From a virus: a stretch of DNA of 24,036 nucleotides. The translations under genes and the position numbers were made by a program. The notes under the pieces are model-generated. The model saw only the letters and a program-made list of their open reading frames with translations. It was not told where the DNA came from and did no database searches. Shown one piece after another: positions 1,794-17,339 of the stretch (the stretch's first letter is position 1; each line of letters begins with the position of its first letter). The stretch spans positions 1-24,036 of the IMG/VR virus record IMGVR_UViG_3300010354_000651; one strand, written 5' to 3'.

Positions 1794-2217
1794 ATCTTAG
1801 TTGAATAAACTGTAGGTTGTTTGGCCCATATATGAGCCTCTGCTCTTCCTTAAAGCCAAGGAACTGAAGCAGTTTTAGATGAACAAGGTTCCTTGCATCT
1901 GCACTGCACCAGAGGTACGGCTCAGATCGACCTTCTATGAACCGCTTTGCTTCTTTAGCAAACGTGTGTGGATACTTTTGAATTGCAGGAGTGCAGAGCA
2001 TCCAGATCTGGTAATCACTGCCAATTCCAACTATTCCTGCTAATTCGTTGTTTGGGACGGTAAATGTATAACACTCATCCCTAATTGATGCTAAGGGTAT
2101 GGCATGGATAGGAACCACACCATGACCCTCAACACATTCTTTGTGGTCATCCTCCCGTAAGCTAGAAGCCACCTGATAGGCGGCCTCTAACGTACAAGGA
2201 TGTATGTAATTAGACAC
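1723..2217 (-). CDS. Virion assembly protein, gp13-like (GNAT-like fold)
   Basis: This 164-residue protein resembles T7 gp13 (138 aa), a small protein needed for virion/internal core assembly. The most recognisable part is the C-terminal region around NLVHLKLLQFLGFKEE, which matches the HIRFLKTIGA segment of T7 gp13 and resembles motif B of GNAT-like proteins. I chose the GTG start at 2217 because it gives MSNYIHPCTLEAAY, a normal N-terminus for the family, and overlaps the gp12 stop by a few bases. The only longer alternative is a TTG at 2256. The frame continues about 20 residues past the expected end and encodes an Arg-rich tail (RPRHRSPDRRSSRAIRNG) within the start of gp14. T7 gp13 has no such tail. 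Confidence 0.8.
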   Translation of the reverse strand: MSNYIHPCTLEAAYQVASSLREDDHKECVEGHGVVPIHAIPLASIRDECYTFTVPNNELAGIVGIGSDYQIWMLCTPAIQKYPHTFAKEAKRFIEGRSEPYLWCSADARNLVHLKLLQFLGFKEEQRLIYGPNNLQFIQLRYGSIYRPRHRSPDRRSSRAIRNG

Positions 2218-5200
2218 CCCGATAGAATCGATTGTTGTAGTCACCCTCCCATACAACTGAGTTGATCGTTGCAGGACCAGGATGGTCTGATGAGATGGTC
2301 AGCTCAGTATCCACATTTCTTGCATAAACAGGTATGACTTGAGTAGCAGAATCTTTAAATGGTACCGTACCAATCTCATACTGATCAGTAGTTCTTACTG
2401 TGTACTCTTCTTCGTAGTCTTCATGTCCCAGCCTGGAGAGTTTAGAACTGAAGACACCTGAATCGCCAAAATTAACCTTAACTCTATGAATTATCAACGA
2501 CGAACGGGTATCAGCAACATATCCTGATTCTGTTTTTTGCTTCACATAGAATTTGGGAAGTTTTACTTCCATATCAACAGGATAGCCTACTAGAATTGAA
2601 GCTTGGCTCCAGTCACCAGGAACAGTTGCTGTATATCCATCTTCATCGAGAGTAGTTGCATCTAAGGTGACTTCAGCTGCATAACCTGCTAAGTCAGACG
2701 CATCATCAAGGCTGTAGGCGATCACCCTTTTTGTGGTGGATAAACCTGAGGGAACCTTGAACGTGCTTTCATTAGCATTATCATCAAAGGTAATTTCGTC
2801 AGGTGTTATCAGGGCAGCGTTGTCAATGTGAACGTTGAAGCTTGAACCCTCACTGTTGGTGACAACAGAAGACCAATTTTGCTGTTTAAGGTCAAACCTC
2901 TGGATTGAAATGTAATCTTGAGGGTTTGTAGTAGCAGTTACTGAAACGTTATTTGTTTCGGTAAAATTGACAGCTGAGCCATCAACCTCAGTGACGTACA
3001 AGCGAGTACCATCGTCATCACGATCAACAACTAGGTATGGACCGCTTAGAGTGTTATTATCCTCAACTGAAATGTTGACAGTAGCTCCAATATCAAATCC
3101 AAGAGCCCACTCACCTGTAGTAAGTTCTATGTAATCAGAGTTGAAGTTTACATCAGTCAACTCTACAGAAGTTTCAGCCAGCTCATCATTGTTTCGGATA
3201 ACCGCATAGTAGCCATCATTCAAGATCGCATGAGAAACAAGCGAGCCTGAAAGTTGCCACTTAAACCACGCCCCCTGGGCACGCTCTCGTCCGTTGTCAA
3301 AGTACTTGAACAGCCAAACAATACTACTAGCTTCTTCGTTATCTACAATGCTTTCAGACGTAGAGTTTACATCATCTCTGTAGTAGGATTCACCAATAAA
3401 GATAATACCGTAATCTTTACTTGATGTTACCTGATTGAGTGTATCGGGTAAAAGACTACCCACAATCTTACTCTGTTCAACCACTCTTGCGTCAGAACTC
3501 TGTGGAATTTCAGTAATCTCATACATCGATGTATTGGCACCAGTGTCACCTAGAAATGCAATGCTTGTTCCTAAGCTGATAGGACGTGTTTTGTTGTTGA
3601 ATTTATAGGTGCTTATAGTGTCGATTTTTAGGTTGTCTGGCGCAAGAATGTCACCATCAGTACCCAACAGGAACTGCTCTCTATCACTAAACAGCAACAG
3701 CCCTGATCGGCTTGCAAGCATTGATGTTGCTGATGCTGCAGATGAAGATCCTAAGGCAATATCAATTGGATCTGATGCAATGGATGTAATTGCAGTCTTG
3801 GCAAAAAAGTTGAAGAGATCTCCCGCCCTGGACATACAAACAGTATCATCGGCTAGGAAGGCAAGCCTATTCCTATATAGGCAGATGTCGGATATGTACT
3901 TACCAACAAAACTTGGGATTGGCACAGAGATGTCATCTCCAACCTCGCGGTCCTCCCAATCAACTGGGCTGACGACAAACAGCTTATAAGAGGAGTTGGT
4001 TTCAGAATCAAAGACAGTGGTCCTCACCAACTGATGTGGCATTGTTGAAGCATCAAAGCTTTTCTTAATACCTGGCTTGTGAGTTTCTTCCCATACACCC
4101 TCACCTGAAGTAACACTACCTGCTGCAGTCTTACCTTCTTCACAGGTAAACTTAAGCCAGTAATCGTCTTCCTCTTCTGCACTGTTAATCACTTGGACAG
4201 TGTATCCATTTTTACAGGAGATCGGAAGTCTGGTGATGTTATTTACTCGGTTCGTGAATACATTAACAAGGTGAGCATCTACGGCTTCAATTGAGAAAGG
4301 AATGCTGCTCTTGATATAGATGCCATTGCCAATCCGCTCTGTAGTAAATGGGGAGCTTGCAAGTCCAGCAAAAGCTGACTGCAGGGCTGTGATAATGCTA
4401 CTAGCGTCACTGGAAGAAGTTGTAGGAGCAATGCTGATCTGTTCAACAGCACCAAGATAGGTAGCGGTACTCGCCTGCTTTACCCGGATTTTGTATGTAG
4501 CTTTTGCCATGCTGACATAGACCACATCATTAACATTCCAGTTATCACCACCTTCAATAATTTCTACGTCAGCTGAGTACGCACATTTATATCCCTTTTT
4601 AGCATTTGAATAATCCTTAGGAATAACTTGCGCTGTTGTGGTAAGGGAAAAGGTCAGATTCCCTTGTTCGGGTGTTACTGTAGACCCAGCAGCATTTTTC
4701 CAAGCCCCTCCCTTGTATGTATAGGTAGTACCATTAGCAAGAACAATTTTAGAACCTTCACGGTTTGCACTTGCACCTGTTGGGTTAATCGTAAAAGTTT
4801 CACTACCGACGTTCTCACAGGCATTTTTTGTGGCATCATCCTTGTCTGTATACGTTGGTTCTCCTACAATTTCAAGGCTCACTGCCGTTGAAATTTTTGT
4901 TTTGGAAGAGACCGTCGTTTCACGCCTAACAAGCATTTCGTAGCTTGCGGAGTTCTTGTCGATGACACGTAGCTCAACAAAGCCTTGGTAAGGAAGCGTG
5001 CTCTTGGATGAGGTCGTCATTTTGACAGGACCAATTGGAGCAGCAGGATCGCCGTTTGTAATGAAGGTGTAGTCGTTAATGGTAAAGGTTTTAATCTTTG
5101 ACGAGTCTGCGTGCTTGAAATACGAGACAGCTGCCACAGGTGAATCGACACCACTATTTACGTCATCATCACTAATGACACCTGATGACACCTGGTTCAA

Positions 5201-6511
5201 TGAACTTGCTGTGTAGGTACCTGATTCTTTGATTGAGAGTAGTACTGTTTCTGGAGCTTCTACGGTTGCGTCATTAACCGCTCTGACACGAATCTTGCGA
5301 GACTTTTGGTTCTTGCCAAATGTAAAACTAAATTCGGTCGATCCTGAATTAAGAGCTATAAGAGTGTTGTCTACTCGTATCTGATAGTCTGTATTTGGAG
5401 TTGCAGTGCCTGCGATTAACAGAGTAACCGTCAGCTTTGAGCTGAATGGCTTGCTCGCTGTCTTTGTCCTGGATACCGTATAAACAGCTTCGTAGTATGT
5501 ATCAGTACTGGAGGCACCTTCCTTAGTAATTGTTTTGTCGGGATCTATTTCAAGTGAAATAATCGGAAGTGTATTTTTTGTCGGTTTGTTTATCTTGACC
5601 CCACAAGAAGATGCCTGCTTTTCATATTGTATTTTAGCAGTATTAAGGTCACTTAATGTCGCACTGATTGAACTTTCGGTATTAGAGACTTGCTGTTTAA
5701 GGCTGTCAACTAGCTTAGGTTTAGGTATAACCTTGTAAGCATAGATGTTGCCGAAATATCCCTTATAGTTTGCAGCTTTCTGTATTAGCTGACCCTGCGA
5801 TATTGTGGCTCCGGGGTACTTCTTTTGTACAGCAGAAAGACCATATTGAATTGTCTTATTGCCAAAAACAAATATTCCAACCTTAATTTCTTTTAGGAAC
5901 TTTTTGCCACCGAAATAACCACCTTTGGAAGATGCAGTCTTATTGGTGGTGGCATACACCAGCTCTTTGACCTGGATCGCCTTGTTATCTTCAATCGCCT
6001 TAGCAAGTTGACTTTTTAGCGTTGTCAACTTTGATTTAAGATCATCATATTGTTTCTGTAAGCCGTAGTACTCGTCAGCTGCTTTGGTGTAAGCTTGAAT
6101 ACTACATGTTTCATCAATAGGTGATCCTGTAACCGGAACGTTTGATAGCGATGTAATAAACTCGTTGATTACCGCGTCAGGATTCTTATAGGGGACTGTC
6201 TGATATACAACAGGAATTGAAGCGCCAGTCAATGCATCCCAAACTTCAATCCTTCCGTTTGTGTGTACCCTGCCAATGTATTGCTCAGTGGGGTCACGGT
6301 CGATTGCAAACCATTTGCCAACGTAGTCTCTTGAGATGGCTGAATAGGATGTACCTCCAACCAGCTGTCCACCTGGCCTTTTCTTCAAGCCATCGGCAAC
6401 ATCAGGAAGTACGTTGACAGCATCTTTTAAGAAGCCTGGAGCAATCAGTTCATCCGCTTGTTGTGAAATCCCCAGGATAAGATTTGGGATAGTCTGTGTA
6501 ACTGATGCCAT
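2210..6511 (-). CDS. Tail nozzle / tail tubular protein B, gp12-like, with Calx-beta insertion
   Basis: At 1433 residues this is much larger than T7 gp12 (794 aa), which forms the hexameric tail nozzle. The family signature is clear at both ends: the N-terminus TIPNLILGISQQADELIAPG and GLKKRPGG match the gp12 start, and NDYTFITNGD (about 479-488), the SFVGKYISDICLYRNRLAFL segment and DPIDIALGSSS match the core. Between about residues 105 and 475 is an insertion absent from T7. It holds a helical coiled-coil pair (about 142-182 and 262-300) around a Gly/aromatic-rich stretch, then a Calx-beta domain (about 316-450: GTATPNTDYQ, VNDATVEAPETV, SDDD). The gene starts with TAATG overlap to gp11 and is followed by gp13. 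The insertion probably decorates the outside of the nozzle and may bind calcium or a host surface ligand; that role is inferred. Confidence 0.93.
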   Translation of the reverse strand: MASVTQTIPNLILGISQQADELIAPGFLKDAVNVLPDVADGLKKRPGGQLVGGTSYSAISRDYVGKWFAIDRDPTEQYIGRVHTNGRIEVWDALTGASIPVVYQTVPYKNPDAVINEFITSLSNVPVTGSPIDETCSIQAYTKAADEYYGLQKQYDDLKSKLTTLKSQLAKAIEDNKAIQVKELVYATTNKTASSKGGYFGGKKFLKEIKVGIFVFGNKTIQYGLSAVQKKYPGATISQGQLIQKAANYKGYFGNIYAYKVIPKPKLVDSLKQQVSNTESSISATLSDLNTAKIQYEKQASSCGVKINKPTKNTLPIISLEIDPDKTITKEGASSTDTYYEAVYTVSRTKTASKPFSSKLTVTLLIAGTATPNTDYQIRVDNTLIALNSGSTEFSFTFGKNQKSRKIRVRAVNDATVEAPETVLLSIKESGTYTASSLNQVSSGVISDDDVNSGVDSPVAAVSYFKHADSSKIKTFTINDYTFITNGDPAAPIGPVKMTTSSKSTLPYQGFVELRVIDKNSASYEMLVRRETTVSSKTKISTAVSLEIVGEPTYTDKDDATKNACENVGSETFTINPTGASANREGSKIVLANGTTYTYKGGAWKNAAGSTVTPEQGNLTFSLTTTAQVIPKDYSNAKKGYKCAYSADVEIIEGGDNWNVNDVVYVSMAKATYKIRVKQASTATYLGAVEQISIAPTTSSSDASSIITALQSAFAGLASSPFTTERIGNGIYIKSSIPFSIEAVDAHLVNVFTNRVNNITRLPISCKNGYTVQVINSAEEEDDYWLKFTCEEGKTAAGSVTSGEGVWEETHKPGIKKSFDASTMPHQLVRTTVFDSETNSSYKLFVVSPVDWEDREVGDDISVPIPSFVGKYISDICLYRNRLAFLADDTVCMSRAGDLFNFFAKTAITSIASDPIDIALGSSSAASATSMLASRSGLLLFSDREQFLLGTDGDILAPDNLKIDTISTYKFNNKTRPISLGTSIAFLGDTGANTSMYEITEIPQSSDARVVEQSKIVGSLLPDTLNQVTSSKDYGIIFIGESYYRDDVNSTSESIVDNEEASSIVWLFKYFDNGRERAQGAWFKWQLSGSLVSHAILNDGYYAVIRNNDELAETSVELTDVNFNSDYIELTTGEWALGFDIGATVNISVEDNNTLSGPYLVVDRDDDGTRLYVTEVDGSAVNFTETNNVSVTATTNPQDYISIQRFDLKQQNWSSVVTNSEGSSFNVHIDNAALITPDEITFDDNANESTFKVPSGLSTTKRVIAYSLDDASDLAGYAAEVTLDATTLDEDGYTATVPGDWSQASILVGYPVDMEVKLPKFYVKQKTESGYVADTRSSLIIHRVKVNFGDSGVFSSKLSRLGHEDYEEEYTVRTTDQYEIGTVPFKDSATQVIPVYARNVDTELTISSDHPGPATINSVVWEGDYNNRFYRGV

Positions 6512-7125
6512 TAGTTTCTAGCAAATGCACGATATGGTTGGAACGTTTGATATGACGTGTTGTCTGGCAACCCAAAGTAGGATGCATCTGATTGATTGCA
6601 TTCATACTCCATGCAGCTTGCACGCAGGAATGCTTCCTGAGTAGATAGAAGGGCAGCAAGCTCCCTGTTAGCAACCATTTGAGTCGCAGCACGTGTGGCA
6701 GATCTTGCCGCAATGTATCTCTTAAACACAAGTGGAAGATTTTCATACTCCACCAGTTCGATGACATCACAAAGAATTGGGTCGTTAAACTCATACGAGT
6801 GTGCCATCTTGTCGTATAGTTTCCCGTCTTTAACAATTACATTGGTAAGCCTACGATTATAGTTATCGTGTGCATCTACCTTTATGTAGTTAGATGGGAT
6901 TGGGATCTCCTTGCTGCCGTTGGGTGTTAATTTAATCTGCTCCTCTGTATTAAACGACCAACCCTCTGACTGAACATCAAGTATGGTGTCAATAAGGATG
7001 TTGTAAATGAATGCTACCTCTGGGTTTGTAAATTCCAGGGAGTTCAGTGGAGCTTGTCCCAGGCTCCCGAGAATTGAATTTACTGCGGATAGTTCTGTAT
7101 CGAAATCTTCAATAATGGAAGCCAT
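6511..7125 (-). CDS. Tail tubular protein A (adaptor), gp11-like
   Basis: This 204-residue protein is close to T7 gp11 (196 aa), the dodecameric adaptor between portal and nozzle. Family features visible are the N-terminal LSAVNSILGSLGQAPLNSLE (residues 12-31), the segment DVQSEGWSFNTEEQ, the PIPSNYIKVDA strand and the DLPLVFKRYIAARSAT-like helix (here NLPLVFKRYIAARSATRAAT). The gene is the first after the capsid terminator, just as in T7. Its ATG lies 10 bases beyond the U-tract of that terminator, with no clear Shine-Dalgarno sequence. Its TAA overlaps the gp12 ATG (TAATG), which suggests coupled translation of the two tail proteins. Confidence 0.93.
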   Translation of the reverse strand: MASIIEDFDTELSAVNSILGSLGQAPLNSLEFTNPEVAFIYNILIDTILDVQSEGWSFNTEEQIKLTPNGSKEIPIPSNYIKVDAHDNYNRRLTNVIVKDGKLYDKMAHSYEFNDPILCDVIELVEYENLPLVFKRYIAARSATRAATQMVANRELAALLSTQEAFLRASCMEYECNQSDASYFGLPDNTSYQTFQPYRAFARN

Positions 7126-8348: not shown

Positions 8349-8373
8349 AAAAAATTTTGTATTGGTTTTTTGT

Positions 8374-8456
8374 GGTCTCTCCCACCGTCAATGGCTAAGG
8401 GTATCGGCGTACCGGCCTCAGCCAATAGTGATGGGGAGCATTGAACTCCCCAGACC
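8374..8456 (-). promoter_or_regulatory. Predicted structured RNA leader of the capsid transcript
   Basis: The minus-strand RNA can fold into two hairpins enclosed by a short closing stem. The closing stem pairs GGTCT (8456-8452) with AGACC (8378-8374). Hairpin 1 pairs GGGGAG (8451-8446) with CTCCCC (8438-8433) around a 7-nt loop TTCAATG. Hairpin 2 pairs nine bases at 8424-8416 with 8400-8392 (one G-U) and continues with CGG/CCG around a TACG tetraloop (8411-8408). A/C-rich unpaired sequence follows. It lies between the micro-ORF stop and the capsid gene. Possible roles are an RNase processing site, an mRNA stabiliser or a riboregulator. All of this is inferred by hand folding; no known RNA family is recognised. 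Confidence 0.5.
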
Positions 8457-8459
8457 GCC

Positions 8460-8522
8460 TTAACGGTTCACTGTTTTGGTATACTTAACACCACGATAGG
8501 TGTAGGTAACTTGAATGGTCAT
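8460..8522 (-). CDS. 20-residue DUF4278-like micro-ORF
   Basis: ATG at 8522 to TAA at 8460 encodes MTIQVTYTYRGVKYTKTVNR. The core TYRGVKY resembles the start of the short DUF4278 proteins of cyanobacteria, which begin with a strand containing TYRGxxY. A good Shine-Dalgarno sequence (GGAG, 7 bases before the ATG) supports translation, which is notable in a window where most genes have none. It lies between psbA and the capsid leader. It would be one of the smallest genes of the phage. The function of DUF4278 is unknown, and the match to it is from memory of the family pattern. Confidence 0.6.
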   Translation of the reverse strand: MTIQVTYTYRGVKYTKTVNR

Positions 8523-8596
8523 TGGGATTCTCCGTTATGCTCATGCGCGTTCCAGCCTTGAGCGACCCGTCCCCATGGGGATGAACGTACGGAGGA
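8523..8596. other. Short non-coding gap between psbA and micro-ORF
   Basis: This 74-base gap holds the Shine-Dalgarno sequence of the micro-ORF and two modest inverted repeats: CCCCATGGGG (palindrome, about 8572-8581) and, on the minus strand, GCTCA/TGAGC about 15 bases apart. No U-tract follows either, so I do not call a terminator. No ORF of note is visible. Confidence 0.4.
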
Positions 8597-9679
8597 TTAA
8601 CCAATAACAGGAGCAGTCAACGCAACCTCACTTGTACCAGCAGTTGCCAGATCAAGTGGGAAGTTGTGAGCATTACGCTCGTGCATCACTTCAAAGCCAA
8701 GGTTGGCTCGATTCAGAATGTCTGCCCAGGTATTCACCACACGACCATCAGCACTAAGCAGTGACTGATTGAAGTTAAAGCCATTCAGATTGAATGCCAT
8801 GGTGCTCACTCCAAGTGCAGCAAACCAAATACCAACCACAGGCCAAGCAGCGAGAAAAAAGTGAAGGCTACGGCTGTTATTAAAGGAAGCGTACTGGAAG
8901 ATAAGCCTGCCGAAATAGCCGTGAGCAGCGACAATGTTATAAGTCTCTTCTTCTTGACCAAACTTGTAACCATAGTTCTGTGATACTTGCTCAGTGGTTT
9001 CCCTGATAAGAGAGGAAGTAACAAGAGAGCCGTGCATCGCGCTGAATAGCGCTCCACCAAAAACTCCAGCAACCCCAAGCATATGGAAGGGGTGCATCAG
9101 GATGTTGTGCTCAGCTTGAAAAACAAGCATGAAGTTAAAGGTCCCCGAAATACCCAAAGGCATACCGTCAGAGAATGATCCTTGTCCGAAGGGATAGACA
9201 AGGAATACAGCAGATGCGGCTGCAACGGGGGCTGAGTAGGCAACACAAATCCAGGGCCTCATCCCTAGTCGATAGCTAAGTTCCCACTCGCGTCCCATGT
9301 AAGCAAAGATGCCAATGAGGAAGTGGAAGACAACGAGTTGGTAAGGTCCCCCGTTGTAGAGCCATTCATCAAGTGAATTAGCTTCCCAAATTGGGTAGAA
9401 GTGTAGTCCGATGGCATTGCTGCTGGGAACGACGGCTCCCGATATGATGTTGTTTCCATAAAGAAGACTGCCAGAAACAGGCTCACGAATACCATCAATA
9501 TCGACAGGGGGAGCCGCTACAAAAGCCACAAGGAAGCAGATGGTTGCTGCAAGGAGACACGGAATCATCAGTGTTCCAAACCAACCAACATAAAGACGAT
9601 TGTTAGTGCTGGTTACCCAGCTACAAAAACGCTCCCAGCTGTTAGACTGAGAGCGTGGAAGTGCAATAGTTGCAACCAT
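8597..9679 (-). CDS. psbA: Photosystem II reaction-centre protein D1
   Basis: This full-length 360-residue D1 protein replaces photodamaged host D1 during infection and keeps light-driven energy supply going. Numbering is one ahead of the standard because of one extra N-terminal residue. Visible functional residues are Tyr162 (TyrZ), Asp171, Glu190, His191, His199 and His216 (chlorophyll and iron ligands), Ser265 and His273, and the manganese-cluster ligands His333, Glu334, His338 and Asp343, with Ala345 as the new C-terminus after CtpA cleavage. The residue equivalent to position 130 is Glu (Glu131 here), the form associated with high-light D1 in cyanobacteria. The N-terminal 20 residues and Cys41 differ from typical host sequences. 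The gene follows rlpA by 6 bases and has no Shine-Dalgarno sequence. It is probably transcribed with hli and capsid genes. Confidence 0.99.
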
Positions 9680-9685
9680 TATAAT

Positions 9686-9982
9686 TTAAGAAAGACGAGT
9701 AATTCTTATCCGTCCAACTCCAGAGCGTGTGAGACCGATAGCATCAGCCGCACCTTTACTGAGATCAAGGCTCCTACCATGAATGTAAGGACCCCGATCA
9801 TTGACCCGAACAACGGCACACCGCCGGTAGCAGACTCGAAGTCTGGTTCCAAACGGGAGTGTCTTGTGCGCTGCAGTAAGGCCGTTTTGATTATATCTTT
9901 CCCCGTTAGCGGTAAGGTTGCCATGGAAACCAGGACCGTACCAACTAGCGAGCACAGACAATGTAGTTAGAATAGGAAGCAT
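9686..9982 (-). CDS. RlpA-like double-psi beta-barrel protein (probable peptidoglycan lytic enzyme)
   Basis: This 98-residue protein is essentially one RlpA-like double-psi beta-barrel domain: SWYGPGFHG, TANGERYNQNGLTAAHKTLP, FGTRLRV, VVRVNDRGPY and GRSLDLSKGAADAIG. Bacterial RlpA cleaves glycan strands lacking stem peptides. The residues equivalent to the known catalytic set are all here: Glu28, His39 and Asp62. Two cysteines (51, 55) could form a disulfide. No SPOR domain is present. The N-terminus is hydrophobic (MLPILTTLSVLA) and looks like a truncated signal peptide, so export is likely. It lies between the 49-aa ORF and psbA. It may help lysis or virion entry, since no T7-type amidase (gp3.5) is seen in this window. 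An expansin- or barwin-like binding role is an alternative. Confidence 0.88.
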   Translation of the reverse strand: MLPILTTLSVLASWYGPGFHGNLTANGERYNQNGLTAAHKTLPFGTRLRVCYRRCAVVRVNDRGPYIHGRSLDLSKGAADAIGLTRSGVGRIRITRLS

Positions 9983-10024
9983 AATAAAATAGCGAAGAAC
10001 TTTTATATCTCCGTCTACTCAAAT

Positions 10025-10055
10025 AGCCTCACCACTACTCGCAAGAAGTGAGGCT
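10025..10055. terminator. Hairpin between 49-aa ORF and rlpA-like gene, weak terminator or processing site
   Basis: An 8-bp perfect inverted repeat, AGCCTCAC (10025-10032) and GTGAGGCT (10048-10055), is separated by 15 bases. On the transcribed minus strand only ATTTG follows, so it would be a poor intrinsic terminator. On the plus strand it is followed by a T-rich tract, but that tract is the Lys codon run of the neighbouring gene. It could partially uncouple hli from rlpA-psbA or be an RNA-processing site. Confidence 0.45.
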
Positions 10056-10063
10056 CTTTCTAT

Positions 10064-10213
10064 TTACTTTTTTTTGGCAGTCTTAGCGGCTTGCTTGAAC
10101 TGCTTAGCAGTAGGCGCACCAGCTGCTCCAGGTTTACGCATCTTCTCGCCACTGCCTTTAGCGATTCGCTCGCGTTTGGCGTGGATGTTGGCGTACAGTC
10201 CAGGCTTTGCCAT
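10064..10213 (-). CDS. Small basic conserved phage protein, 49 aa
   Basis: ATG at 10213 overlaps the hli stop (TAATG). The product begins MAKPGLYANIHAKRERIAKG and continues with SGEKMRKPGAAGAPTAKQF, ending in TAKKK. I recognise this as a small Lys/Gly-rich protein that recurs in marine phages, usually near structural genes, but I know of no function. It is strongly basic (about one third Lys/Arg), with no membrane segment or metal motif. A nucleic-acid or virion-associated role is possible. It is coupled to hli and followed by a hairpin. Confidence 0.85.
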   Translation of the reverse strand: MAKPGLYANIHAKRERIAKGSGEKMRKPGAAGAPTAKQFKQAAKTAKKK

Positions 10214-10350
10214 TACCAAATTCCAGGGATAAGCTGACCAGTGACGGCGTACGCACCGATAGCTGCAATCACACCCAGCATTGCCAGGCGACCATTCAGC
10301 TTCTCAGCACGTTCGTTATGTGATTCAAGATAGTTAGGGTCCATATACAT
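10213..10350 (-). CDS. hli: High-light-inducible protein
   Basis: This 45-residue single-helix chlorophyll-binding protein carries the family motif ExxNGRxAMxG as EKLNGRLAMLG, followed by a hydrophobic transmembrane stretch (VIAAIGAYAVTGQLIPGIW). Hli proteins dissipate excess light energy and stabilise photosystem II in the thylakoid. The phage copy supports photosynthesis in infected cells together with psbA. I chose the ATG at 10350 because an AAAGAG stretch lies six bases upstream. A second ATG follows two codons later. The frame is open upstream into the scaffold gene, but with no better start. The stop overlaps the start of the next gene by one base. Confidence 0.96.
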   Translation of the reverse strand: MYMDPNYLESHNERAEKLNGRLAMLGVIAAIGAYAVTGQLIPGIW

Positions 10351-10378
10351 CGGTGGCTCTTTGGCCCAAATGTTGTTA

Positions 10379-11197
10379 TTAGAAGTCAAGGTCAGAACGT
10401 TCAAGTTTGTCAAAGAGATCCTGGCGATATGCTGGATCATTTTCATAGCGAGGATCAGACATCGCACGTACAAGCTCTGCCTGACTACGGAATACATCAG
10501 TGCTGGACTTCGCAGGCTTGCCCTGTAGTGTGTCCCCTTCAAATCCCATAGCGTCGGTATACCTAAAGTAAAGTGCTTGCAGAGCAAGGTTGATTGCGTT
10601 CATGTCACCTGACTCAATGATCGAGTCAAATGCAGAGACTTCTGATTGGCTGAAATTATCTGCTGCCCAACCAACTAATTGGTTATAAGCGGCCTCACCT
10701 CCAACGGAGTTCTTAATCTGATTTACAGCACCTTCAGACAGTTCAGTACCTGTTGACTGAGACTGCTGTGGGTTCTGTTCTTGCATACGAAGGTACGCCT
10801 GAACCAGTTCCTGAGAGGAGAGCTGTGAGAAAGCTTCCATCGTTTCTTCACTTAGTTCGCCAGTTTGAGCAAACTGCTCACTGGCTTCTAAAAGAAGGTT
10901 GACTTGATAATCTTCCTCCTGCTCTTCCTCTTCTTGAGGCTCCTCTTCAGAATCAACATCTTCTTCCTCACCATCCTCTTCAGTCTGTTCTTGACGGGAA
11001 GATGGATCACCCAACTTTTTCTGTAGTTCGATGTAGGCCTGCTCAAGCTCTTGTGCATTCTTGTATTTGCCAGCGAGCATTGATTCATGCTCTGCCATCA
11101 AGGCTTCGCCTACTTCAAGAGAGTCAGCTTCATCTGCTGCAACTGAATCAATAACTACAGGATCAGCAGAAGAATCATAAGTAAATACTTCGGACAT
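10379..11197 (-). CDS. Capsid assembly scaffolding protein, gp9-like
   Basis: This 272-residue protein is close to T7 gp9 (307 aa), the internal scaffold that guides procapsid assembly and then leaves. It is strongly acidic: residues about 66-100 form a Glu/Asp-rich low-complexity tract (GEEEDVDSEEEPQEEEEQEE). The region with ALMAEHESMLAGKYKNAQEL resembles the conserved N-terminal part of podovirus scaffolds. The C-terminal part (SDPRYENDPAYRQDLFDKLE) is a typical short helix ending that docks on the capsid protein. It lies directly after the portal gene. The next genes are hli and psbA rather than the capsid gene, which is the usual insertion point of the photosynthesis cassette in T7-like cyanophages. 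Confidence 0.92.
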   Translation of the reverse strand: MSEVFTYDSSADPVVIDSVAADEADSLEVGEALMAEHESMLAGKYKNAQELEQAYIELQKKLGDPSSRQEQTEEDGEEEDVDSEEEPQEEEEQEEDYQVNLLLEASEQFAQTGELSEETMEAFSQLSSQELVQAYLRMQEQNPQQSQSTGTELSEGAVNQIKNSVGGEAAYNQLVGWAADNFSQSEVSAFDSIIESGDMNAINLALQALYFRYTDAMGFEGDTLQGKPAKSSTDVFRSQAELVRAMSDPRYENDPAYRQDLFDKLERSDLDF

Positions 11198-11211
11198 AAA
11201 TATGTGGTGGT

Positions 11212-12819
11212 TTACATTGCACCTTCAGGTGCTTGGGGTGGTTGTTGACCAGTGAGCATTTCTTGCAATCCTGCTGCAGCCTCAGGGTTCTTTGTTGGAT
11301 CCATCAGAGGAGCTTTAGCCAGCTGCCCAACTTGTCCAACAAGAGATTGCTGCGCTTGCATCTGCATTCCTTGTTGCATCTCAGCCTGCATCTGTTCCTG
11401 GGTCTTAACAAGATTCAAAATGTCAATACCCTGAGCAGCAGCAAGACGCTTGATAGCTTCAGAAGGATCGATGTATTTCATCAATGCTTCTGGACCAAGT
11501 GTTTGTGCAATGGTCATGATGAAAGCTGTGAGACTCTCACGGTCCTGACCACGACCAAGTGCGTTCACACCTGCAACAATCTGTGGACGGACAAGATCCT
11601 TAGGCAGCTTTGGCATTTGGTTGCTGCGCTGCAGGATCAGCAGAGTACGGTTGAGATACGGAATCAAGAACTCAACTGTCAGCAGACTGAACAGTCCACC
11701 AAGTTGTTGCTCTAGCTCCAGCTGGGTAAGTCGAACTTCTTCAGCAGTTGTCCGTTCAGACTGTCTGACAGTCAGGATCAGGAATGCTTCAGAGATCCGC
11801 CTTTCAATCGTTGCTGCCATTTCAGAGGCAGTGCGGAAGTCGGCAGTTTTTCCAACCTGGATAACTGACACATCTTCCTGACGACCTTGGATGATCGCAC
11901 CGTTGCCTGCCTTGGCCAGCGTGGTCGGTTTGGTAGTGCTTGAGGGTGAGACTAGGAAAACAACTTTAGCGGCTGCTGCAGAGCCTTCTACGAGGGACTG
12001 AGCGAGTGATTCAAGGGCACGGAAGTCCCCAAGAAACTCTTCGACACGACCCCTCCCATAGTCTTCACCATCAACTGAATTAAAACGGAGGACGAGCCAA
12101 GGAGATGCGTTCTTAGGAGCTGTGCTCTTGCTGTTAGGAAGTACTTTGTCAAATGCTTCCTGGTGCCAGACCCAGCGCCCATTCTTCTCATCTAGCTTAA
12201 CGTGAGTGTATACTTCTACGTCGTCGCCGGTTGAACCTCGTAACCCATTCTGCATTGAATCATTGGGCACGGCTGCGGGCAGTTCAGAACCCAACAGCTT
12301 ACGTGAAATTAGTTCTTTGGTAACAATCTCAATCACGTTACCATTACCATCCCTCTCTACACAAAAGCGATTGAGGGGAAAGTTTTTCAGACCATCTTTG
12401 CCCATATAGATCAGAGCGTTACCACCAACAATCAAATGCTTGAGTGCTTGGTGTACGACTACCCGATCGTTTGATGCAGCGATGTAATCCATGACCATCC
12501 TTTCCATTTTGGAGAAGGACAGGTCAAGCTCGCTTCGGATCTCAGCAGGCATCTCAGTGCCCAGCTTGTCATCACGAATTTGTAGCTTAAAGAACGTTGT
12601 TTGTGGTGGCAGTAGTGCCAACATCAACTTAGCTGCCAGAGTTACAACAGCCTTTGCTCCCACACTCTGCCAAGGTGTTAGCAGTGTTTTGTTCGCATTT
12701 CGTCTGTCAACATCTTCATCAATGAGATACGGCAGTGTAAGCTTTGAACACTCAACTGCCGTTCTCAAGAAAATGTTTCTGGTTGAGCTAAGTTCGTCGT
12801 ACCTAGCTTTAGCGGTCAT
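11212..12819 (-). CDS. Head-tail connector / portal protein, gp8-like
   Basis: This 535-residue protein matches T7 gp8 (536 aa) in length and layout. The portal is a dodecameric ring at one vertex through which DNA is packaged and ejected. Visible family features are the N-terminal AKARYDELSSTRNIFLRTA and PYLIDEDVD, then LTPWQSVGAKAVVTLAAKLM, the KHLIVGGNALIYM segment, the clip/wing region FNSVDGEDYGRGRVEEFLGD, and SEAFLILTVRQSERTTAEEV with the conserved RxTAEEV. The C-terminus is Gln/Met-rich, probably a barrel-like helix. The start overlaps the stop of the Pro-rich gene (ATGA), and the scaffold gene follows after a 14-base gap. Confidence 0.96.
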   Translation of the reverse strand: MTAKARYDELSSTRNIFLRTAVECSKLTLPYLIDEDVDRRNANKTLLTPWQSVGAKAVVTLAAKLMLALLPPQTTFFKLQIRDDKLGTEMPAEIRSELDLSFSKMERMVMDYIAASNDRVVVHQALKHLIVGGNALIYMGKDGLKNFPLNRFCVERDGNGNVIEIVTKELISRKLLGSELPAAVPNDSMQNGLRGSTGDDVEVYTHVKLDEKNGRWVWHQEAFDKVLPNSKSTAPKNASPWLVLRFNSVDGEDYGRGRVEEFLGDFRALESLAQSLVEGSAAAAKVVFLVSPSSTTKPTTLAKAGNGAIIQGRQEDVSVIQVGKTADFRTASEMAATIERRISEAFLILTVRQSERTTAEEVRLTQLELEQQLGGLFSLLTVEFLIPYLNRTLLILQRSNQMPKLPKDLVRPQIVAGVNALGRGQDRESLTAFIMTIAQTLGPEALMKYIDPSEAIKRLAAAQGIDILNLVKTQEQMQAEMQQGMQMQAQQSLVGQVGQLAKAPLMDPTKNPEAAAGLQEMLTGQQPPQAPEGAM

Positions 12820-13073
12820 CCCAGATTAGTTCCGGTAGGGTTAATATTTGATGTCCCAAGATTCATTGGAATCTTCAAGGACGCTGTGCCAGATTGAGAG
12901 GCTGGCTGCTTATCTGCTTTAGATGTTTTAGTTTTAATGCCGATGTTGTCATCGGGGTTGCCAAGAACCTCAGCCTTACCTCCTTGCTGTGGAGCAGGGG
13001 GAGCCTTAGGGGCCGGTGCCATAGGAAGCGGCGGAGGCAGTGGAGGTGGAGATGGTTTGCTACCAAAGCACAT
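12816..13073 (-). CDS. Proline-rich small virion protein, gp7.3-like
   Basis: This 85-residue protein starts MCFGSKPSPPPLPPPLP, a common beginning for small phage proteins encoded just before the portal. It then has a poly-Pro/Ala arm, a Lys-rich middle and the ending SGTASLKIPMNLGTSNINPT. The end resembles the KKSLSVARSSGGGINI end of T7 gp7.3, a tail-associated scaffold/host-range protein. Position (directly upstream of portal) fits gp7.3. Start and stop both overlap neighbours by one to four bases (TAATG and ATGA). The function is inferred from synteny and the C-terminal pattern. Confidence 0.8.
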   Translation of the reverse strand: MCFGSKPSPPPLPPPLPMAPAPKAPPAPQQGGKAEVLGNPDDNIGIKTKTSKADKQPASQSGTASLKIPMNLGTSNINPTGTNLG

Positions 13074-13258
13074 TATTCTTCCTCCAGTAATTGTTTAACG
13101 TATTCAACAATGCTTGCCTGACCAGCTCGATACATGATCTGTTCCATTGTGTCATTAGGAGTAGGAGTACTCCATCGAAAATTTTCTTCTAATAGACCTA
13201 ATAGTTTGTCTACAGTAAAGCCTAAATTAAGCGTACTGTGGGAGGTTTGGGTTTGCAT
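13073..13258 (-). CDS. Conserved-looking small protein, 61 aa, unknown function
   Basis: I place the start at the ATG at 13258 (MQTQTSHSTLNLGFTVDKLL), which overlaps the end of the RNR beta gene by 32 bases. The frame is open further upstream with a non-ATG start, but that part lies wholly inside the RNR gene. The C-terminal half, with MEQIMYRAGQASIVEYVKQLLEEE-like helices, is amphipathic. No motif is recognised. It links the nucleotide-metabolism block to the head genes, and its TAA overlaps the next ATG (TAATG). Confidence 0.7.
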   Translation of the reverse strand: MQTQTSHSTLNLGFTVDKLLGLLEENFRWSTPTPNDTMEQIMYRAGQASIVEYVKQLLEEE

Positions 13259-13940
13259 GTTCAAAGAAGGCAGGCATACGAGCACGTTGAGTTTCCAAGA
13301 GACCTTCAGCCTTGCCTGAGTACATCAACGAATCGCTCGAATCCAGCCAAAATTTTTTGTCTAGATATTTGTTGGCCGATCTGCCCAATGGTTCCATGAC
13401 CCAATTGATCGTTGCCTTCCGCAGTCGATCAAGAGAAGGGCTAACGGTAAGGTTCAGCTCTTTACATACAAGGCTGTTACAAGCTACGTGCACTTGCTCG
13501 TCTCTGCTGATGTCAGCGGAAACTGTTCGTAGACCAGCATCACCGTTAAAACGGAAGAACGGCAAGAGCACAAAGAAAATCGCACGTTCGGCCACCATTG
13601 CTTTGAGGACCGTGTGATCTGGATGAGCCATCCAGGCATCCCGTAGCTTGAGGGCCTCAGCTTCAGCCTTTGCATCAGTGCCGATAGCGTTGGCGATATA
13701 AGAGAGTGCAAGGTCATGCTTCTCTTCATCGGTGATGTTGGATCGCAGTAGTGGTACTGCTGCTTCCGGTACTTCATTCTTGAGAGCTTCGTTGATAAAA
13801 TCTCCAACTGGAAGTTCCATATGCCTGATGGCAAGAGCACGGAAAATAGTTTCTTCCGCACCCTCTGCCAACTTACCGGCGGTTGTTTGGACAGGGGTCC
13901 AAGTTCTTTTTCTATCTAGGAGTTTCTGATAAGGATTCAT
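13227..13940 (-). CDS. nrdB: Ribonucleotide reductase class I beta (radical-generating) subunit
   Basis: This 237-residue ferritin-like helical protein should carry the di-metal site that starts the radical for the alpha subunit. Two ExxH metal-ligand motifs are visible: E72-E-K-H75 and E148-Q-V-H151. A third ligand candidate is E118 (VAERAIFF), with E42 or E30 as the first-helix ligand. The tyrosine that normally carries the radical, four residues after the first His, is Leu79. This matches the re-annotation of the P-SSP7 cyanophage RNR as class I with an overlooked, unusual beta. E. coli NrdB has 376 residues, so this is short. The ATG at 13940 overlaps the alpha stop (ATGA), a strong hint of a coupled pair. 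It is often left as hypothetical. Confidence 0.85.
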   Translation of the reverse strand: MNPYQKLLDRKRTWTPVQTTAGKLAEGAEETIFRALAIRHMELPVGDFINEALKNEVPEAAVPLLRSNITDEEKHDLALSYIANAIGTDAKAEAEALKLRDAWMAHPDHTVLKAMVAERAIFFVLLPFFRFNGDAGLRTVSADISRDEQVHVACNSLVCKELNLTVSPSLDRLRKATINWVMEPLGRSANKYLDKKFWLDSSDSLMYSGKAEGLLETQRARMPAFFEHANPNLPQYA

Positions 13941-15328
13941 TCGCCGCAATTACATTGAGGAGCAGGATCGTTAAGAAGAGACTCCAGGTAGGCGTCAACC
14001 TCAGACTGATCCAATGCGGCGTAGGCGTTGGTCTTGTCTTGAGTGTCACCCATAACCTGAAGCGAGTAATAAAGGGAGGTCTGCGGTGATTGCAGCCACT
14101 CTTCAATAAACGCTTCGTCATAGGTGATCACATCCGACCAACTATTGAAGCTATAACCGTGAAGAAGTCCCGTAGCATCCAGCATCTGTACGATGCCATC
14201 AGCAACCTTTTTATAGTCATCCCATCCAACCTCTGAAGCAATCTCCACAGGGCCATAGTCATAGCTCTGCACTCCAAAGGTCCCAGAGTCACGGTCTACT
14301 TGACGTGCAATGGGAGGTGCGATTTCAGGACAGGTGGTGTACCCATCCAGATCTGTGTACCGATAGCTGCATGATGCAGTAGGAGCAATGGCAAAGGCCC
14401 GCTCCATTCGGTTAGCTCTGGCAATCTGTGCAGCAGTGTTGATGCCCAGCAAAAGCTCATGTGCAAGAACCCTTGCTGGTGTGGCTTCACAGGGCTCTGC
14501 ATTGTTGATCTTCTCCAGAGCTTCCCCAAACTGCTTGTAGGTCACGTTGTACCGGCGCAGCAGGTTGGCAAGACCCAGCATCCCAAGACCCACCTGACGG
14601 TCAGTCTCAGACGGCAGATACTCACCACTCTCTCCCACACCTGTCTTGGCGTGAAGGGAGCACAGCTGAGCCATGCCCTCCGTAAAGGCACCCACAATGT
14701 CCTCTACGTTGCATTGCCCAAGGTTGATGTGCTGCAGCAGGCACGTTCCCCTAGAGGGTAGGTAGACCTCCAGGCAGACGTTTCCACGAATGCGTTGACC
14801 ATTGCGGTCAACCTTTGTCTTGTTCAACCAGATGTCCCCCTGGCGGATGCCAAGGAGAAGAGCTTCTTTTACTTCGGAGGATGCCGTCTGCCACCAATGC
14901 GGGTTAATGTTGATACAACGTTTAACCCAAGGTAGATCAGCCCGATTAGCATTGATAAAGTCAAGAACGTCGGGATGGTTAAGATCAAGATGACATACAA
15001 CAGCTCCATTCTTGTAAACTCCTCCTCGTCTCAGTACTTCGTTGAGGGTTGAATAGATTTTTGCAAAGGATACCGGGCCTGATGCCACAAGTCCTTTGCC
15101 GTTTTCAGCTCCCTTTGGTCGTAGCTTCGAGAGATGAACAGCCACTCCAGCTCCATAGCGGAGGGCATGAGAGACGAATCTCCAGGATGCTTCAATTCCA
15201 TTTGGTCCTTCCATTTCATCCTCCACCACAAAGACGGTGCAGGACACAGGAAGGCGTGAGGAGGGATCATCAATCCAGCTCTGCACACGTCCAGTGCGAG
15301 CGATTACTTCTTTGATGGCTTTGGACAT
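13937..15328 (-). CDS. nrdA: Ribonucleotide reductase catalytic (alpha) subunit, compact cyanophage type
   Basis: This 463-residue enzyme reduces ribonucleotides to deoxyribonucleotides. Visible active-site elements are Cys30 (PVSC), the N-x-C-x-E motif at Asn183, Cys185 (thiyl radical) and Glu187, the second redox Cys196 (RGTCLLQHINLG), and a C-terminal CNC (459-461) for re-reduction by thioredoxin or glutaredoxin. The loop AIAPTASCSYRYTD is the phosphate-binding region. It has no ATP cone, so the usual dATP feedback control is missing. The short, class II-like sequence often leads to a B12-dependent label, but the adjacent beta gene argues for class I. It starts directly after the MazG stop and couples to nrdB. 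Confidence 0.93.
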   Translation of the reverse strand: MSKAIKEVIARTGRVQSWIDDPSSRLPVSCTVFVVEDEMEGPNGIEASWRFVSHALRYGAGVAVHLSKLRPKGAENGKGLVASGPVSFAKIYSTLNEVLRRGGVYKNGAVVCHLDLNHPDVLDFINANRADLPWVKRCININPHWWQTASSEVKEALLLGIRQGDIWLNKTKVDRNGQRIRGNVCLEVYLPSRGTCLLQHINLGQCNVEDIVGAFTEGMAQLCSLHAKTGVGESGEYLPSETDRQVGLGMLGLANLLRRYNVTYKQFGEALEKINNAEPCEATPARVLAHELLLGINTAAQIARANRMERAFAIAPTASCSYRYTDLDGYTTCPEIAPPIARQVDRDSGTFGVQSYDYGPVEIASEVGWDDYKKVADGIVQMLDATGLLHGYSFNSWSDVITYDEAFIEEWLQSPQTSLYYSLQVMGDTQDKTNAYAALDQSEVDAYLESLLNDPAPQCNCGE

Positions 15329-15718
15329 TTATACTAGGTCGTTAAGGTTGGGTGGTTTATAGTTGGGTCCCTTAAGGACCTTTCCATCTTCTCGATAGAT
15401 GGGATCACCATCTTCATCGAGTTTGGTCATGTTGCTTTGATGCACACGGTTGAGAGCTTCATCAAGATCCCAACTCATGTTCTCTGCATACTGGTAGCAG
15501 ACGTAGACAAGATCTGCTAACTCTTTAAGGCAATGGGCTTTGTCTTTAACTCCCATCAAATACATATCGTTGTCAGCCTCAAGGAACTCCTTGAACTCTT
15601 CAACGATCAAATTCCGTTGCCCAGTCCGTGAAACTCTGCTCGTACTGTTCTTGACCCGGAAACTTTTCCTGAACTCTTGTGCTTGGTCGCTCAGAAAGGA
15701 TTTCATTCTCAAGCTCAT
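15329..15718 (-). CDS. MazG-like nucleotide pyrophosphohydrolase
   Basis: This 129-residue all-alpha NTP pyrophosphatase-like protein has the family metal-binding pattern EExxE...ExxD as Glu40-Glu41-x-x-Glu44 and Glu66-x-x-Asp69. The C-terminal part NRVHQSNMTKLDEDGDPIYR and REDGKVLKGPNYKPPNL is typical of the phage/cyanobacterial subgroup that resembles phosphoribosyl-ATP pyrophosphohydrolase. It hydrolyses (d)NTPs or related nucleotides to monophosphates. The exact substrate cannot be told from sequence. Its 5' end overlaps the DUF3310 gene by about 120 bases, and it is immediately followed by nrdA. I use the ATG at 15718, though ATG 15706 (MKSFLSDQ) is equally plausible. Confidence 0.9.
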   Translation of the reverse strand: MSLRMKSFLSDQAQEFRKSFRVKNSTSRVSRTGQRNLIVEEFKEFLEADNDMYLMGVKDKAHCLKELADLVYVCYQYAENMSWDLDEALNRVHQSNMTKLDEDGDPIYREDGKVLKGPNYKPPNLNDLV

Positions 15719-15905
15719 TTTGTAGATAATGTATTGCTTTGGTAAGGTCTTTTACTTTGTTCTCTTTGTAGCCAGCACGGCAGATATATTTGATTGCGTT
15801 ACCTAAGTGGTAGTTCAGTCGTTGGTCTCGAATGAAGTCCCATACTTCGACTGAACCTCTGCGATAGTATCCAGGTCCTTCGATTTCTGTTGTTCGCGTG
15901 GCCAA
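15600..15905 (-). CDS. DUF3310 domain protein (T7 gp1.7-related)
   Basis: This 101-residue protein contains the DUF3310 pattern VEVWDFIRDQRLNYHLGNAI then KYICRAGYKENKVKDLTKAI and HYLQNELE. In T7 this domain occurs in gp1.7, reported as a nucleotide kinase acting on dTMP/dGMP. Whether this short form has that activity is unknown. The only start in frame before the domain is TTG at 15905; an in-frame stop lies upstream and there is no ATG or GTG. It overlaps the 77-aa ORF upstream by 91 bases and the MazG gene downstream by 119 bases, so it is tightly nested. The nucleotide-metabolism setting fits. Confidence 0.85.
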   Translation of the reverse strand: MATRTTEIEGPGYYRRGSVEVWDFIRDQRLNYHLGNAIKYICRAGYKENKVKDLTKAIHYLQNELENEILSERPSTRVQEKFPGQEQYEQSFTDWATEFDR

Positions 15906-16048
15906 TGTTTCAGAAGGTTGTTGAGTGAATTAGTTAGACAAAAGGTCTGCCTCTGTAAAGCAAGGAAGACAGTGATGATGTCCTCCTTGGCTGAGTCAGG
16001 GTGACGCAAAGCGTCTTCAATTTGCCTTATCTTGAACTGCTGCTCCAT
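15815..16048 (-). CDS. Small protein, 77 aa, unknown function
   Basis: I chose the ATG at 16048 because it has a good Shine-Dalgarno sequence (GGAG, six bases upstream); the frame is open further upstream with a Pro-rich stretch inside the exonuclease gene. The product starts MEQQFKIRQIEDALRHPDSA and has mainly helical sequence (ITVFLALQRQTFCLTNSLNN). No known domain is recognised. It overlaps the 3' end of the exonuclease gene by 32 bases and the DUF3310 gene by 91 bases. Confidence 0.65.
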   Translation of the reverse strand: MEQQFKIRQIEDALRHPDSAKEDIITVFLALQRQTFCLTNSLNNLLKHWPREQQKSKDLDTIAEVQSKYGTSFETND

Positions 16049-16790
16049 TGTCAGCTCCAGGATTGGAGGTGGCGGGGGGTTCCCAAAGGAGGATGCTTTG
16101 TTCAGAAAAGTCATAGTTTTCTACTTGAAGGATCTTGGCAAGACGCGCATTCAGAAGCGCCTGACTCTCATCAAGGTCCTTCTCAGCAAAAGCTTTGACT
16201 ACGGTTTCCCATGTGCACCCCTCTTCATCAAGAAGAGCTTCCGCCCTTTTGATTCCGATACCAGGTACGCCTGAGTAACCATCTGTCTGGTCGCCTGCCA
16301 GTGTTTGAATGAAGTGCCACCTATCCCCATGTTCCTTCTCAATGGTCTGGACAGGATCAGATAGGTTGTACAAATCCCCAGGGATCTGCTTCATATCCTT
16401 GTCAGGTGAGCAGATGATGTTGCCTGGAAATTTTGTGGCATGGATTCCAATGGCATCATCGGCTTCCATGCTTGGCATGATTACGACGCTGTAGTCTTCC
16501 TTTAGCTTGTTGATTACTCGTCTATACCCGCAAGGTTTCTTTCGGTTGCGGTGGCCTTTGTAATCGGGTGAGATAGCTTTGCGGAAATTAGCAGTATCAG
16601 AGAAGAAAAGAATAGAATCGTCGAAACAACCAAGGTCATTAGCAATTGAGTACAGCTCTCGCTCTACCATGTCGTAGGCTTCACTGAATCGACTGGTGAC
16701 AGTAATAACTTCATCACCCCAATCGATCTCAGTTTCGTTTGCAGCGCAGCATTTATAGACAATAAAGTCAGCATCAATCAATAGGCTCAT
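16017..16790 (-). CDS. 5'-3' exonuclease, gp6-like (FEN/5' nuclease family)
   Basis: This 257-residue protein is close to T7 gp6 (300 aa), which removes RNA primers and degrades host DNA to nucleotides. Metal-binding acidic residues of the family are visible: Asp6 and Asp8 (LIDADF), Asp65 (FFSDTANFRK), Glu109/Asp111/Asp112 (MEADDAIG), Asp130/Asp132 (SPDKDMKQIPG), and Asp167/Asp170 (AGDQTDGYSGVPGIGIKRAE, which also forms the helix-hairpin-like DNA-binding element). The NFRK segment and the RRVINKL helix match gp6. It supplies dNMPs for the MazG/RNR block downstream. The start overlaps the 47-aa basic ORF stop (ATGA). Confidence 0.95.
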   Translation of the reverse strand: MSLLIDADFIVYKCCAANETEIDWGDEVITVTSRFSEAYDMVERELYSIANDLGCFDDSILFFSDTANFRKAISPDYKGHRNRKKPCGYRRVINKLKEDYSVVIMPSMEADDAIGIHATKFPGNIICSPDKDMKQIPGDLYNLSDPVQTIEKEHGDRWHFIQTLAGDQTDGYSGVPGIGIKRAEALLDEEGCTWETVVKAFAEKDLDESQALLNARLAKILQVENYDFSEQSILLWEPPATSNPGADNGAAVQDKAN

Positions 16791-16930
16791 TTACCTTGGC
16801 CTCTGCTGAGCTTTCGCCCATGAGAGGGTAGGCTGCGTTTACCTTCTCCTTGGCGAGTGTGTTTAAATTTAGCCCTTGACATGAACTTCTTTAGGGCTTG
16901 AGTTTTAGTCTTTGTTTTTGCGGGTGGCAT
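16787..16930 (-). CDS. Very basic 47-aa protein, unknown function
   Basis: ATG at 16930 (MPPAKTKTKTQALKKFMSRA) to a TGA that overlaps the exonuclease ATG (ATGA), so it fills the gap between the endonuclease VII-like gene and gp6. It overlaps the 3' end of the endonuclease gene by 26 bases. About 19 of 47 residues are Lys, Arg or His and only one is acidic. A shorter version could start at ATG 16882 (31 aa). No Shine-Dalgarno sequence is evident. It may bind nucleic acid. I do not recognise a family; coupling to gp6 is the main support. Confidence 0.6.
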   Translation of the reverse strand: MPPAKTKTKTQALKKFMSRAKFKHTRQGEGKRSLPSHGRKLSRGQGK

Positions 16931-17339
16931 CTACGTTAGTGGATAGATAGCATAACGCTCTATGGACTTTTTGTGGATCATCACCAAAGCACCCAAGGCC
17001 ACGATTGCAACGGTCGCAGATATAACCTCTAAAGGTTTCGTTGGTGTGGCAGTGATCCAATATCCATATCTTTGTGTGAGTTGAGCAGATTGGGCACGGA
17101 CCTGGTGGGGGCATTGGGTTCCTTTTGCGTAGCTTTGAGCGAAGTTTTGCCATTTCAGTTCTACAACTACGGCAGGTATTTCTTCTGCCCCCTCCTGTTT
17201 GGTAGTGATCAAATAAATCTAGTGGTTTGATCTCTTCACATTTAATGCACTTCGCTCCAATTTGTTCCGTCCTTTGCAGAGGCTGCGATTGGAACTCTAA
17301 GCCCGTAATATTCTCCTGATTGTACTGCGGATAGTTCAA
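16905..17339 (-). CDS. Endonuclease VII-like (His-Me finger, HNH-type) endonuclease
   Basis: The sequence has an N-terminal zinc ribbon (CIKCEEIKPLDLF...CRSC) and a C-terminal recombination endonuclease VII domain: CPICSTHTKIWILDHCHTNE, TFRGYICDRCNRGLGCFGDD. The two CxxC pairs bind zinc and the DH in LDHCH is the catalytic metal site. T4 endonuclease VII resolves branched DNA, but stand-alone relatives in phages are often homing endonucleases. The given start is a TTG inside the DNA polymerase gene (98-base overlap). No ATG or GTG is available. An ATT at 17261 with an AGGA eight bases upstream, giving a protein starting just before the zinc ribbon, is another candidate. Here it sits right after the polymerase gene. 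Confidence 0.85.
   Translation of the reverse strand: MNYPQYNQENITGLEFQSQPLQRTEQIGAKCIKCEEIKPLDLFDHYQTGGGRRNTCRSCRTEMAKLRSKLRKRNPMPPPGPCPICSTHTKIWILDHCHTNETFRGYICDRCNRGLGCFGDDPQKVHRALCYLSTNVDATRKNKD

Follow-up and report, generated by a model that had tools for sequence, protein, structure and literature searches.

The stretch of DNA considered here is a virus contig from IMG/VR (record IMGVR_UViG_3300010354_000651, positions 1 to 24,036; the window, below, is this whole 24 kb stretch), and it carries the gene set of a T7-like cyanophage: RNA polymerase, primase, ribonucleotide reductase, psbA, portal, capsid, gp11 and gp12. Its gp12 encodes a tail nozzle protein of 1433 residues, compared with 794 in the gp12 chains of T7, as an earlier note made from the sequence had stated. 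Near the N terminus lies a large insert, referred to here as the arm, in which a coiled-coil hairpin is followed by a single Calx-beta domain. The genes and features concerned are as follows, in window coordinates.

2210 to 6511, minus strand: gp12, tail nozzle protein, 1433 residues, overlapping gp11 by 1 nucleotide.
6511 to 7125, minus strand: gp11 adaptor (PHROG 446), which adjoins gp12 upstream and fixes its place in the tail operon.
5114 to 6196, minus strand: the whole insert, gp12 residues 106-466 (about 361 residues), in the loop matching T7 gp12 residues 101-108 or thereabouts.
6104 to 6106, minus strand: Cys136, at the start of the hairpin, retained in all aligned hairpin nozzles.
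5981 to 6100, minus strand: coiled-coil helix 1, residues 138-177 (AlphaFold2; predicted local distance difference test score, pLDDT, mostly 71-81 for the block).
5723 to 5980, minus strand: Gly/Tyr/Phe-rich distal part of the hairpin, residues 178-263 (low-confidence model, pLDDT about 33-61).
5606 to 5722, minus strand: coiled-coil helix 2, residues 264-302 (AlphaFold2; block pLDDT about 79-84).
5603 to 5605, minus strand: Cys303, at the end of the hairpin (..YE..A..CG[IV]), retained in all aligned hairpin nozzles.
5153 to 5566, minus strand: Calx-beta domain, residues 316-453, with candidate Ca2+ ligands E331, D375, D414, E418, E421 and D448-D450.
5054 to 5083, minus strand: TINDYTFITN, residues 477-486, the opening strands of the following propeller blade and the point at which the conserved nozzle sequence continues.

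The gp12 protein is unambiguously a T7-type nozzle protein. It matches the Pfam family PF25675 at 480 bits (cut-off 27; E 1.5e-143) as well as PHROG 457, and its gene comes directly after gp11, as in the T7-type order. An AlphaFold2 model of residues 1-1120 has the central beta-propeller nozzle fold and superposes on T7 gp12 (7ey9) with a Z score of 29.4 and 3.9 A over 552 residues; the structural Z score against gp23 of P-SCSP1u is 23.

In most of the 15 other nozzles aligned with gp12, nothing corresponds to residues 106-466; T7 and P-SSP7 lack the insert too. It stops just before TINDYTFITN, which bears out the claim of an N-terminal insert of about 370 residues ahead of this motif. Alignments of T7 gp12 and P-SCSP1u gp23 to the nozzle profile both break at T7 residues 101-108 or so, and the strands of the AlphaFold2 model run as four at 65-103 and then from 473 onward. 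Because the strand order on both flanks fits a loop between blades, the insert is placed in an inter-blade loop of the propeller. The third blade of the T7 nozzle opens into the tip domain (PMC6702177), and for this reason the arm probably projects from the tip side of the propeller, near the blade that bears this domain. The insert provides 361 of the 639 residues that are extra over T7. The remainder lies elsewhere: in a region (about 545-690) common to P-SSP7-type nozzles and in smaller inserts specific to the window, notably 1121-1214. This second insert (window 2870-3151) is found only in the gp12 of the window, being some 75 residues longer than the equivalent region of the closest relative, L114, and it gave no phage match, no PHROG and no Pfam match of note. 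The GC (guanine plus cytosine) content of the codons of the main insert resembles that of the rest of gp12, so the insert is not visibly a recent arrival. Single-protein searches with it found none in viral contigs or genomes and, in a phage collection, Calx-beta matches only; profile searches were needed to detect its homologues.

The assignment of residues 316-453 as a Calx-beta domain, proposed in the earlier note for about 316-450, is correct. Pfam's own model (PF03160), with which a check had been suggested, gives 18.5 bits and thus falls below its cut-off of 27, whereas residues 335-452 score 65 bits with a profile of 95 Calx-beta domains from which the window was left out. The best of 2000 shuffles reached 15.7 with that profile, whose 95 members had been retrieved using the window domain as the confirming query. 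The motifs conserved in the family (GTAxxxxDY, DxxxExxET and a terminal DDD) are present, and alignment with S-CRM01 g123 and the repeats of Xanthomonas phage LucasX reveals GTA....DY, D...E..E and a terminal D in common. A profile from this alignment in turn matches the calcium-binding domains (CBDs) of NCX1 in the PDB, down to E 1e-12; a phmmer search of the PDB with the domain alone returned matches at chance level only. The domain was folded separately from the nozzle, because a mixed alignment of hairpin and Calx-beta had smeared the hairpin rows across the Calx-beta region. The resulting AlphaFold2 model (61 sequences) has a pLDDT of 85 and ten strands in the Calx-beta fold, the outcome for which structure prediction had been proposed as a check. 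Foldseek ranked NCX1 CBD1 first, and VIA-align against CBD1 of Calx and of NCX1 gave Z scores of about 10.5 (3.1-3.2 A over 109-113 residues), compared with 7-8 for unrelated rows. In the alignment behind these PDB matches, the ligands of NCX1 CBD1 (E385, D421, D447, E451, E454 and D498-500) fall opposite E331, D375, D414, E418, E421 and D448-450 of gp12, and the domain most likely binds Ca2+ through these candidate loop acids.

The hairpin precedes this domain. Its paired helices, noted earlier at 142-182 and 262-300, are predicted at 138-177 and 264-302. Helix 1 has a clear 3.5-residue periodicity with Tyr, Ala and Leu at the a and d positions, matched by 0.04% of shuffles; the heptad spacing of helix 2 is weaker and is reached by 5%. 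A disulfide between Cys136 and Cys303 is possible. Homologous inserts of 185-200 residues with two bracketing cysteines occupy the same site in the cultured phages S-RIP2 and S-SBP1, both with Synechococcus WH7803 as host, and in the fosmid phage MedDCM-OCT-S45-C4, and a scan of IMG/VR with the hairpin module found at least 80 loci. Another four nozzles (L019, L024, L028 and L030) have a longer type ending in ..YE..A..CG[IV], as in the window; hhalign between the long and short types gave 97% over helix 1 and its lead-in, and the G-[NDSK]-x-Y pattern of the distal part (GNIYAY) is retained in most of the long-type relatives. With two long helices between two cysteines, the closing YE..A..CG[IV] or its equivalent and the same site, the hairpin of the window belongs to the S-RIP2-type module. 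Across 172 nozzle open reading frames (the best 80 loci per search, with the Calx-beta loci left out), the distance from G[IV]SQQPD to NDYT is bimodal, at about 103-129 without an insert and 278-320 (one at 233) with the hairpin; a few nozzles with other inserts fall at 141-247, and the window stands at 464. The hairpin is thus a widespread nozzle module that is not special to this phage. Its distribution over a tree of the nozzle core is patchy and requires several gains, losses or transfers, a count that is approximate because one nozzle (L026) was mislabelled as hairpin-bearing (it has two cysteines and no hairpin). The window itself sits on a long branch of uncertain placement.

The combination of hairpin and Calx-beta domain recurs in one other lineage. 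Among the Calx-beta loci of IMG/VR, L114 has a nozzle gene directly after gp11 that encodes the same protein as L115 (IMGVR_UViG_3300032233_001000 and 3300034198_006791; 1319 residues; PF25675 at 521 bits). This nozzle is 42-43% identical to gp12 of the window and possesses, in the same order, the hairpin with both cysteines, the Calx-beta domain with its ligand acids kept, and an SYFKHxD run leading into TINDFTF. As two further contigs carry the same architecture at the same site, an assembly error is excluded, and the architecture is not an assembly artefact. A dedicated scan of IMG/VR for hairpin plus Calx-beta nozzles revealed no third lineage. Identity between the two nozzles is 67% over residues 1-105 and 55% over 701-1120, compared with 24% in the hairpin and 30.5% in the Calx-beta domain, and such faster divergence of the arm is plausibly what a host-facing part would show. 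The earlier view of the whole insert as a decoration of the nozzle accordingly needs dividing: the Calx-beta domain has been found in two lineages only, but the hairpin is widespread and not part of a unique decoration.

The relationships of the window as a whole are mixed. At the DNA level its nearest relatives are Synechococcus podoviruses, with S-CBP1 at the top. The replication, portal and psbA genes (window 8371-23807) are about 75% identical in DNA to S-CBP1; gp12 (2210-6511) is closer to P-GSP1/P-SSP7-type nozzles (35%) and closest to L114, indicating a mosaic tail. A short open reading frame beside the scaffold gene (about 10213-10587, minus strand), which ends in ...NERAEKLNGRLAMLGVIAAIGAYAVTGQLIPGIW, resembles a high-light-inducible protein.

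Other nozzles carry other material in the same loop:

L021, 2939-3301: repeat domain known from proteins of tail fibres, baseplates and virions.
L103, 1733-2092: repeat domain of the same type as in L021.
L022, 2383-2670: weak CBM_5_12-like stretch, below the Pfam cut-off.
L061, 2384-2716: weak endosialidase-barrel-like stretch, below the Pfam cut-off.

The repeat domain of the first two matches PHROG 17885 at 2e-15 and PHROG 6005 at 2e-8; the insert of L026 matched no Pfam family. The nozzle loop at T7 gp12 residues 101-108 or so is therefore an insertion hotspot. Calx-beta domains themselves are scarce in phages, being present in only 4 of 50,697 phage records with one canonical probe. The LucasX locus (L017, 206680-212745) encodes a GTA_TIM tail protein in which four stretches are Calx-beta, so that the domain has a precedent in a phage tail tip, and a T4-like baseplate hub/tail lysozyme gene (L122, 1366-4992) has one at residues 531-620; L117, L123 and L125 appear similar to the latter.

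On balance, though without great assurance, we favour the view that the arm is a Ca2+-stiffened accessory device for host contact, in which calcium binding, outward exposure and contact itself are all inferred. The arm would plug into the loop between two propeller blades, with the Cys-bracketed hairpin forming a stalk and the single Calx-beta domain following at its base end, and the six nozzle subunits would display six such arms round the tail. Ca2+ bound by the loop acids would stiffen and orient the Calx-beta domain, which could then touch the glycans of the cyanobacterial envelope or a protein on the cell surface and so supplement the tail fibres with a secondary attachment of low affinity. 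Add-on domains of other phage virions and the Calx-beta domains in the tail genes of LucasX and L122 serve as precedents, as does TTPB, a podophage nozzle protein that attaches to a membrane protein of its host and is required for adsorption (PMC7241545). A calcium-dependent role in host contact, as the earlier note had envisaged, is plausible on account of the TTPB precedent, the ligand positions kept in two lineages, the fast divergence of the arm and the readiness of the loop to take other virion and tail-fibre domains; calcium binding and contact remain predictions. The setting given for it, seawater, is unsupported, since the closest isolates by DNA include the estuarine S-CBP1 and the lake phage DSL-LC07.

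Several observations weigh against this interpretation. One ligand position of NCX1 (D446) is Asn413 in gp12. In the whole-nozzle model, for which the alignment had no homologues there, the Calx-beta region has a pLDDT of about 30, too low to place it relative to the stalk. To judge from structure titles, the Calx-beta domain of integrin beta4 has been solved both with and without calcium, and not all such domains need depend on Ca2+. Residues 467-700 diverge from those of L114 as fast as the arm (30% identity), and the faster divergence of the arm would look alike under weaker constraint, a reading that fits the data. The window does not extend to the tail fibre genes, which leaves the primary receptor-binding device outside the comparison.

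The chief rival, which we consider unlikely but worth taking seriously, is that the arm is a structural clamp: the hairpin and Calx-beta domain would support adjacent subunits of the nozzle or the bases of the tail fibres, Ca2+ would add rigidity, and the host would not be touched. The loop sits in the propeller, where the strongest contacts between nozzle subunits occur (PMC6702177), and the retention of the hairpin in many nozzles, whatever domains are added to it, suits a structural role for the stalk at least. T7, P-SSP7, P-SCSP1u and most relatives nevertheless build their nozzles without the arm, unrelated domains occupy the same loop elsewhere, and the conserved core has changed more slowly than the arm. 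That same rapid divergence, together with the patchy distribution, could also be expected of a passively drifting insertion with no selected function, but this is improbable given that an open frame, ligand acids and cysteines have been kept in two lineages between which over half of the nozzle residues differ, and that the codon GC of the insert is like that of the rest of gp12. We give still less credence to a Ca2+ sensor or gate, in which binding or loss of the ion would switch the nozzle from closed to open and tune DNA release to the medium. NCX1 CBD1, of the same fold, is a regulatory Ca2+ sensor, and nozzle opening needs large subunit motions (PMC6702177), but the domain is joined to the end of a long hairpin insert and has nothing to connect it with the gate loops, and nearly all related nozzles lack it and still gate. 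An assembly chimera or a chance resemblance, suggested by the origin of the window as an IMG/VR contig and by a Pfam score that is by itself under the cut-off, has a negligible probability and can in practice be regarded as refuted by the L114/L115 nozzle, with two other IMG/VR contigs having the same architecture at the same site and profile and fold scores far above controls.

If host contact by the arm is taken as the working interpretation, a broader proposal can be entertained, tentatively and as rather less than an even prospect: the loop may serve generally as a socket in which one host-contact module can replace another (hairpin stalk, Calx-beta, carbohydrate-binding-like and tail-fibre-type domains). 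Cyanopodoviruses would then have a second means of adhesion, six-fold and independent of the tail fibres, which in the Calx-beta version would depend on Ca2+. Host binding by T7-like phages is usually credited to the tail fibres and the nozzle is seen as the DNA gate. Were the proposal true, a recurrent, exchangeable insertion site on the outer face of the gate would turn the nozzle into a second surface for host contact; this could help to explain cyanophage host range and would offer a concrete site in S-SBP1 and S-RIP2, to which the Calx-beta version adds a calcium dependence that can be tested.

The nozzle, the Calx-beta fold and accessory domains on virions are each known already; it is their combination on the nozzle that appears new, a search of an open-access library having turned up no report of a Calx-beta domain or of this hairpin on a T7-like nozzle. 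With the T7-type gp12 family (PF25675; T7 and P-SCSP1u gp23), the window shares the platform, beta-propeller, tip core and gp11-gp12 order, but T7 gp12 (794 residues) and its P-SCSP1u counterpart (806 residues) have only a short loop where the window has 361 extra residues. The P-SSP7 nozzle (976 residues) likewise lacks the insert, as the comparison across cyanopodoviruses suggested in the earlier note establishes. The nozzles of S-RIP2 and S-SBP1, annotated as tail tubular or hypothetical proteins, have the Cys-bracketed hairpin at the same site, in an insert of about 185-200 residues that, unlike that of the window, is without Calx-beta. In the L114/L115 nozzle, hairpin, Calx-beta and SYFKHxD follow one another as in the window, but most of the insert at 1121-1214 is missing and the Calx-beta domain ends in DDE rather than DDD. 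In fold, motifs, terminal DDD and acid positions, the domain of the window is as in NCX1 CBD1 and CBD2, Drosophila Calx and the bacterial and cyanobacterial repeat proteins; it differs from PF03160 members in being a single copy nested in a phage nozzle with Asn at one ligand position, and the loop after DY is longer, as in some cyanobacterial copies. Immunoglobulin-like (Ig-like) and carbohydrate-binding accessory domains on virions, for which auxiliary host contact has been proposed, are known from the 936 phages (PMC6669499) and the T7-like phage Peru-2 (PMC13320782). The idea of an add-on is comparable, but the window has a Calx-beta domain in place of Ig-like or carbohydrate-binding modules, and carries it on the nozzle, not on capsid or long-tail proteins.

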